Source: Chromohalobacter moromii (GTDB lineage Bacteria > Pseudomonadota > Gammaproteobacteria > Pseudomonadales > Halomonadaceae). Taken from it: a DNA stretch of 64,000 nucleotides. The position numbers and the translations under genes were made by a program. Below the pieces are notes generated by a model that worked only from the letters and a program-made list of their open reading frames with translations, searched no databases and was not told the DNA's origin. Of the stretch, positions 34,702 to 40,244 are shown one piece after another; position 1 is the stretch's first letter; the number at the start of each line of letters is the position of its first letter. The stretch spans positions 434,001 through 498,000 of the forward strand of contig NZ_JAHXDI010000004.1 of NCBI RefSeq assembly GCF_023091865.1, given 5' to 3'.

Positions 34702-34752
34702 CAAGGCTCCATGAATGGGGCGAAGGACGTGCCGACGGCACGCTCTGGTATT

Positions 34753-34834
34753 TCCTCCGCCGGTGCTAACCGGATCAGGTTCCAGGGTTGCGCGTGGCGC
34801 TCTCAGCCCATTGCGTTGATGGGCACCCCTATCC
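34753..34834 (-). promoter_or_regulatory. TPP (THI-element) riboswitch
   Basis: Read on the minus strand the segment has the conserved THI-box pieces in order: GGGGTGCCC, GGGCTGAGAG, ACCCTGGAACCTGATC, then GGTTAGCACCGGCGGAGG. These form the thiamine pyrophosphate aptamer. It lies about 50 bases before the thiZ start. A 6-bp hairpin CGTGCC/GGCACG at 34728-34742 between aptamer and gene may be part of the expression platform; no U-tract follows it, so control is more likely at translation. Confidence 0.95.
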
Positions 34835-34844
34835 AGAGATGGTT

Positions 34845-39697: not shown

Positions 39698-39982
39698 TTA
39701 TCCTCGCCAGAGTTGCAGTAGGGGGGCGGAAAGTCCGTGCCAGCGAGTATAGAAAATCGCGCGGCGGCGGGCATTGGCGATATCCTCGGTATCATATATG
39801 TCATGACGAAGGTGGAGATCATGACGAAGGAGCGCCAGACGGCCTATCTCGCATTTGGGTCTCGTCCCCATAAGAGTTGCTTTATCGCTATGAGTGACCG
39901 ACAACGTGGTCGGAACAGCCGTGTCTGCCGGCTTTATCGTCGCTGGCGGGCGTTTGGTCGGGACAAGCAGGGCAACGGTCAT
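39698..39982 (-). CDS. Possible small protein of unknown function
   Basis: A 94-aa reading frame with a well-placed GGAGG 8 bases before its ATG. The first 45 residues look unconstrained. The second half (RHDLHLRHDIYDTEDIANARRRAIFYTRWHG, about residues 53-83, of which only parts such as YDTEDIANARRRA are quoted as motif) looks protein-like and would fold as amphipathic helix. The opposite strand has an overlapping frame with no ribosome-binding site, which I rejected. It lies between yccA and a minus-strand small-RNA candidate 144 bases upstream. I recognise no family. Confidence 0.4.
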   Translation of the reverse strand: MTVALLVPTKRPPATIKPADTAVPTTLSVTHSDKATLMGTRPKCEIGRLALLRHDLHLRHDIYDTEDIANARRRAIFYTRWHGLSAPLLQLWRG

Positions 39983-40125
39983 GATCGTAACCTCCACGAA
40001 TCAGCAGGTGTGCCGGTACATTACGACACAGACACTTTCAATTTAGCCGGATTTCGTAACGGCAAAAGAGGATTCGTACAAACCGTGACGGCGCTCATAT
40101 GAGTTGCTTCTGTTGCGGGTCGCAT
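39983..40125. other. Gap between small ORF and small-RNA terminator
   Basis: No gene is supported here. Minus-strand elements TTGTAC and TACGAA 17 bases apart could be a weak promoter for the small ORF. Nothing else stands out. Confidence 0.3.
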
Positions 40126-40209
40126 AAAAAAGGCCGCCTAGAAAGGCGGCCAAGGTTGGGGATATCAACAGATCGTATCGCTAGCTAAAGACACACTATA
40201 TGTTAGCTT
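40126..40209 (-). ncRNA. Candidate small regulatory RNA (or attenuated leader)
   Basis: A near-consensus promoter on the minus strand predicts a start near 40209, and an intrinsic terminator ends at 40126, giving an RNA of about 84 nt. The terminator stem GGCCGCCT/AGGCGGCC (40132-40139 with 40144-40151) has a 4-base loop, followed on the minus strand by six U. The upstream part contains a C-rich unpaired segment (ATCCCCAACC) that could pair with G-rich ribosome-binding sites. There is no meaningful ORF inside. It could alternatively be an attenuated leader of the small ORF at 39698-39982. No known sRNA family was recognised. Confidence 0.6.
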
Positions 40210-40215
40210 GTTAAA

Positions 40216-40244
40216 AATATACCCGCTAACGTGGTTGGCGTCAA
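40216..40244 (-). promoter_or_regulatory. Strong sigma-70 promoter of the small-RNA candidate
   Basis: On the minus strand TTGACG (40239-40244) and TATATT (40216-40221) are separated by exactly 17 bases. It points away from tusD and has only the candidate RNA downstream. Confidence 0.75.

Follow-up and report, generated by a model that had tools for sequence, protein, structure and literature searches.

A probable free-standing small RNA gene between yccA and tusD in the genus Chromohalobacter

The window analysed here is a stretch of 64,000 nucleotides from Chromohalobacter moromii. Its yccA and tusD genes lie about 730 bp apart, and the minus strand of the gap carries a promoter, a predicted RNA ending in a terminator, and a small open reading frame. 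The features are as follows.

40216–40244, minus strand: sigma-70-type promoter TTGACG-N17-TATATT (-35 TTGACG at 40244–40239, -10 TATATT at 40221–40216)
40202–40230, minus strand: inverted repeat GTTAGC-N17-GCTAAC over the -10 hexamer, read from the sequence
40126–40209, minus strand: predicted small RNA of about 84 nt, its start estimated from the -10 hexamer
40183–40208, minus strand: predicted 5' hairpin with base AGCUAA/UUAGCU and a variable upper stem (RNAalifold and pair counts, modest support)
40152–40179, minus strand: middle stretch with AUCCCCAACC, the most conserved part by substitution counts and a candidate seed
40126–40151, minus strand: intrinsic terminator (stem-loop at 40151–40132, then TTTTTT at 40131–40126)
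39983–40089, minus strand: leader block ahead of the small ORF and past the terminator, conserved by mean pairwise identity
39698–39982, minus strand: small protein gene of 94 aa, with GGAGG at 39995–39991 before the ATG; a neighbour, not part of the RNA

The original prediction placed two elements on the minus strand, a TTGACG-N17-TATATT promoter and a terminator made of an 8-bp stem, a 4-base loop, and six U; both are present as described. The terminator stem GGCCGCCT/AGGCGGCC (40151–40132, minus strand) consists of eight pairs, seven of them G-C, around a loop of four bases. By itself the promoter is at chance level: two sites matching at least 9 of 12 positions occur in 4 kb against 1.6 expected, and the 64-kb window contains one site matching at least 10 of 12, where shuffles have 2.1 on average. 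A terminator satisfying the strict rule is unusual, with one in the window versus an average of 0.03 in shuffles. The combination of a promoter and, 40–300 nt further on, a terminator of this kind is found once in the window and in 0/60 dinucleotide shuffles. Judged from sequence, the locus is a short non-coding stretch bounded by its own promoter and intrinsic terminator. The accompanying claim that nothing protein-coding fits between the two elements needs a qualification, as a 41-codon ORF with a TTG start (40168–40043) overlaps the RNA; this frame was judged by eye to be a chance occurrence because it has no Shine-Dalgarno sequence and is not kept between species.

A lack of conservation in close relatives had been set beforehand as an observation that could overturn the prediction, and the comparison did not overturn it. 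The 146-bp segment comprising promoter, RNA, and terminator is present in 10/10 Chromohalobacter genomes, a sample of ten species of one genus with eight distinct RNA sequences, and the promoter elements CATTGACG ... TATATTTTTAACAAGCTAA are found in all ten. Using blastn, 20/275 genomes of the family give a match: the ten genus members and ten others with partial matches only, so that no full-length match is obtained among the 265 family genomes outside the genus. Nine of the partial matches cover only part of the segment, at its terminator end, and the tenth (G064) covers just 19 bases close to the promoter. The ten genus sequences also served to build a covariance model, which was run against the family with strict filters, scoring 16 candidates per genome. 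Although 201/275 genomes yield a hit at E ≤ 1, only the ten Chromohalobacter genomes score at least 59 bits (59.1–114), and the next best genome reaches 31.1 bits; a family-wide search of this kind had been suggested in the original prediction. Thirteen weaker model matches and two blastn matches were read by eye, share little beyond a terminator, and were taken as chance. None of the seven weak matches for which the place of tusD is known (G118, G056, G213, G016, G274, G128, and G194, out of the 13) adjoins that gene.

The genus was identified as Chromohalobacter with a pattern of 19 conserved bases covering the -10 hexamer and the start of the RNA. Among named genomes, taken one per species, it occurs in 13 stretches, and the eight from Chromohalobacter all continue with the RNA and its terminator. 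The other five come from unrelated bacteria, are without the RNA, and were taken as chance; in the Bacillus stretch there is a terminator-like hairpin that differs from the terminator of the RNA. The RNA segment has no match in plasmid and phage records. The record of Chromohalobacter sp. 296-RDG and genus genome G008 share 600 identical nt and probably represent one genome.

Thirty genomes representing 20 other genera of the family were compared, and in 27 of them yccA lies at most 1.5 kb upstream of tusD, with a gap of 7–158 bp. Because the gap is wider in the window than in these relatives, we regard the RNA and the small gene as an insert. By this comparison of gene order, the insert measures roughly 600 bp and is genus-specific among the sampled genomes.

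Comparison of promoter and terminator with the intervening sequence, proposed at the outset, also favors an RNA gene. Mean pairwise identity across seven species is 0.928 for the promoter and 0.905, 0.987, and 0.939 for three successive parts of the RNA, and drops to 0.723 just before the -35 hexamer and 0.842 just after the terminator. For these values L006 and L008 were excluded as near-copies of L005 and L007, L004 was excluded from the segments labeled ORF, and C. israelensis (L010), which is partly misaligned in the full-region alignment, was counted apart. In seven relatives the RNA differs from that of the window at 4–9 of 84–86 aligned sites (divergence 0.047–0.105), while synonymous divergence of the adjacent small ORF in the same genomes is 0.16–0.51. 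Within this one genus, the RNA evolves more slowly than the synonymous sites of its neighbor. The 28-nt middle with AUCCCCAACC has a few gap columns and shows no substitutions in 6/9 relatives (5/7 distinct sequences) and two in each of two others. The most distant relative, C. israelensis, differs at 24/85 aligned sites of the RNA; its middle carries 10 substitutions and a 15-nt insertion, yet retains CAUCCCCAACCUUG. The C-run of C. marismortui is one C shorter.

The same identities bear on the idea that the locus is a conserved DNA control region, an operator either for tusD or for a silent promoter, and not an RNA gene. The inverted repeat over the -10 hexamer and the start of the divergent tusD about 100 bp away are what such a region might look like, but conservation extends through the RNA to the terminator (0.905–0.987 by segment) and falls off in the segments outside, and we consider this explanation very improbable. 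The repeat itself may be an operator. Its TTAGC arm is kept in 10/10 genus genomes while other bases of the spacer vary, and its right arm doubles as the base of the 5' hairpin. A shuffle control for GTTAGC-N17-GCTAAC is uninformative on function because the pattern was derived from the same site.

The 84-nt RNA is predicted to fold at -25.2 kcal/mol (z = -2.98), a stability equaled by 2/200 shuffles. The RNAalifold structure for the ten sequences, whose covariation term is only 0.03, has three elements: the 5' hairpin, the terminator, and between them a weak hairpin. The terminator helix has a probability of 0.98–1.0 in all ten. C-rich bases of the middle stretch have unpaired probabilities of about 0.5–1.0, varying by sequence. 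When the 5' hairpin and terminator are scored together against 500 shuffles, the percentage of paired cells is reached by nine shuffles, and the cells with two-sided changes and the covariation score by 18; the number of pairs with two-sided changes is reached by 101 and the number of further pair types by 461. Sliding the partners by 1–3 columns lowers the paired cells from 94% to 27–40%. Two-sided changes occur at two pairs in the upper part of the 5' stem. For L002 and L003, ensemble folding of the single sequence favors a different structure, and the 5' hairpin has a probability of about 0.1. From these alignments and folding models, the 5' hairpin is likely, though not proven, to be real.

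Downstream, the original prediction described the yccA–tusD gap as gene-poor, which does not hold for the ORF at 39982–39698. This is a real gene because GGAGG precedes its ATG and its dN/dS is 0.14–0.27 in seven within-genus comparisons (eight sequences; G004 and G008, with an ORF of other length or truncated, were excluded). The product matches nothing in NCBIfam or PHROG, and no Pfam family over the cut-off. Outside Chromohalobacter, 22/265 genomes of the family contain homologues at E ≤ 0.001, of which several are weak or partial. Together they define a Halomonadaceae family of small proteins whose C-terminus is conserved and of the type NARRRxxFYxRWHGLxEPLLQIWKA (39698–39982, minus strand; L038–L051). 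At 11 of 13 homologue loci elsewhere a promoter-like block is visible by eye before the ORF, partial in two of the 11; the upstream regions of L038 and L053 differ from this common block. In other genera the block often contains, by eye, tandem repeats of the AACAGYGTTT type that resemble a repressor operator. In Chromohalobacter the leader block at 39983–40089 has an identity of 0.926 versus 0.842 for the segment between the block and the terminator (computed without L004 pairs), and this block may hold the small ORF's own promoter.

This arrangement raises the question of whether the mRNA of the small ORF starts with the 84 nt, a regulated terminator acting as an attenuator. The RNA and the ORF have the same strand and order, the terminator ends 143 bp before the ATG, the ORF is a genuine gene, and the block between the two is conserved as well; moreover, RNA and ORF occur together in 10/10 genus genomes, counting the broken ORF of G008. 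Folding speaks against this explanation, as the terminator helix forms with near certainty in every sequence, no upstream segment complementary to the 5' arm of the terminator is visible by eye, and ensemble folding of the ten sequences reveals no mutually exclusive antiterminator ahead of it. Nor is the leader seen to travel with the ORF. Homologues of the ORF lie away from tusD in 6/6 genomes compared (G174, G076, G047, G040, G056, and G133), and a simple scan of the 13 homologue loci finds no such terminator shortly before the ORF; the terminators at L038 and L051 are some 800 nt upstream. In G008, a single case, the ORF is cut to 32 codons and has lost its conserved C-terminus, while promoter, RNA, and terminator are intact. 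Terminator folding, the placement of the ORF homologues, and the truncated G008 ORF therefore favor a free RNA gene over an attenuator, and the leader alternative offered in the original prediction becomes rather unlikely. A variant with protein-dependent antitermination is conceivable.

An intermediate solution would be a free small RNA with a leaky terminator, whose read-through also expresses the small ORF. The tandem arrangement on one strand fits this scheme, and the sigma-70 scan (at least 9/12) lists no promoter for the ORF itself. On the other hand, the terminator is strong on paper and the ORF may be controlled from the conserved block in front of it, which leaves mixed output improbable. 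We conclude that the genus Chromohalobacter probably has a free-standing small RNA gene on the minus strand, here from 40209 to 40126: its promoter, RNA, and terminator are conserved as a unit and the leader alternative is weakened, so that the central proposal of the original prediction is supported.

The RNA matches no catalogued family. No Rfam family reaches its gathering threshold on it, even in a permissive search, in agreement with the original prediction; at these thresholds the window contains only a tRNA and, at 34735–34840 on the minus strand, a TPP riboswitch (RF00059, 58.4 bits). The lowest E-value below threshold belongs to SorY (RF02651), an sRNA of Rhodobacter, which has a similar length and a model that aligns end to end at 40204–40124; with 22.2 bits against a gathering threshold of 111 and E = 0.041, this match was taken as chance. 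The Phe and Trp leaders of Rfam share the order of promoter, terminator, and ORF on the same strand, but score only below threshold (20.8 and 14.6 bits), and by eye the RNA contains no leader peptide or antiterminator.

In gammaproteobacteria, Hfq-dependent trans-acting sRNAs are intergenic, have their own promoter, and are about 80–100 nt long, with a 5' hairpin, an unpaired seed, and a terminal stem with a U-run. The candidate resembles them in promoter, length, 5' hairpin, seed, and U-run, and the host genome encodes Hfq (PF17209, 100.8 bits); it differs in matching no described family. Its 5' hairpin, largely unpaired C-rich stretch, and U-tailed terminator suggest the anatomy of a base-pairing small RNA. 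The candidate probably represents a new family of an ordinary kind of bacterial small RNA, confined on present evidence to one genus; as such, it would act in trans at the genus level through a C-rich seed, perhaps with the help of Hfq. RNA polymerase would start near 40209 and stop at the U-run, and the U-tailed terminator would recruit Hfq. The conserved, largely unpaired AUCCCCAACC would then pair with G-rich sites in mRNAs, and pairing would alter their translation or stability.

The original prediction suggested that the C-rich stretch could bind G-rich ribosome-binding sites, a role that exact-seed searches left unsupported. GGTTGGGGAT occurs 89 times in the ten genus genomes versus 47 for the reversed pattern, a count that includes the RNA gene's own sites, and none of its eight sites inspected in the window's own genome was read as the leader of a likely gene. 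Shorter seeds before an ATG in this genome number 93 versus 51 in the control and 22 versus 3; with codon bias uncontrolled, the excess carries no conclusion. Fifty-two loci were screened (30 of the 93 sites and all 22 of the second set); five passed, and three of these were followed across the genus, leaving L190 and L194 outside. The candidate site of L176 is confined to the genome of the window, and that of L192 is kept in 4/8 aligned genomes, the own genome included (two genomes were dropped, their match starting beyond the site). The L206 site is kept in 7/10 genomes but lies, by reading, inside coding sequence. Over the part of the sites screened, the exact-seed search thus gave no genus-wide site upstream of a start codon.

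In principle, a candidate RNA gene at such a locus is no surprise. Among the titles and abstract openings listed by a literature search there is no report of a small RNA of Chromohalobacter, and the related genus Halomonas is promoted as an industrial chassis (PMC12164125). A conserved, uncatalogued candidate gene with a nearly invariant C-rich segment offers a concrete test case, and if it is transcribed, it illustrates how an insertion separating two genes that are neighbors in related bacteria can bring a genus a regulatory RNA.

It is doubtful, though worth stating, that the insert is a genus-specific two-gene cassette, in which an RNA with a C-rich seed and a small protein form one regulatory circuit, possibly under common control. 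Such control of the RNA and the small protein would be possible because the GCTAA of the RNA promoter repeat recurs in the invariant GCTAAATTGAAAG of the leader block. A second hairpin, UGUGUCG...CGGCACA (40009–40030, minus strand), lies shortly before the Shine-Dalgarno sequence of the small ORF and, in the alignment by eye, shows apparent compensatory changes between species.
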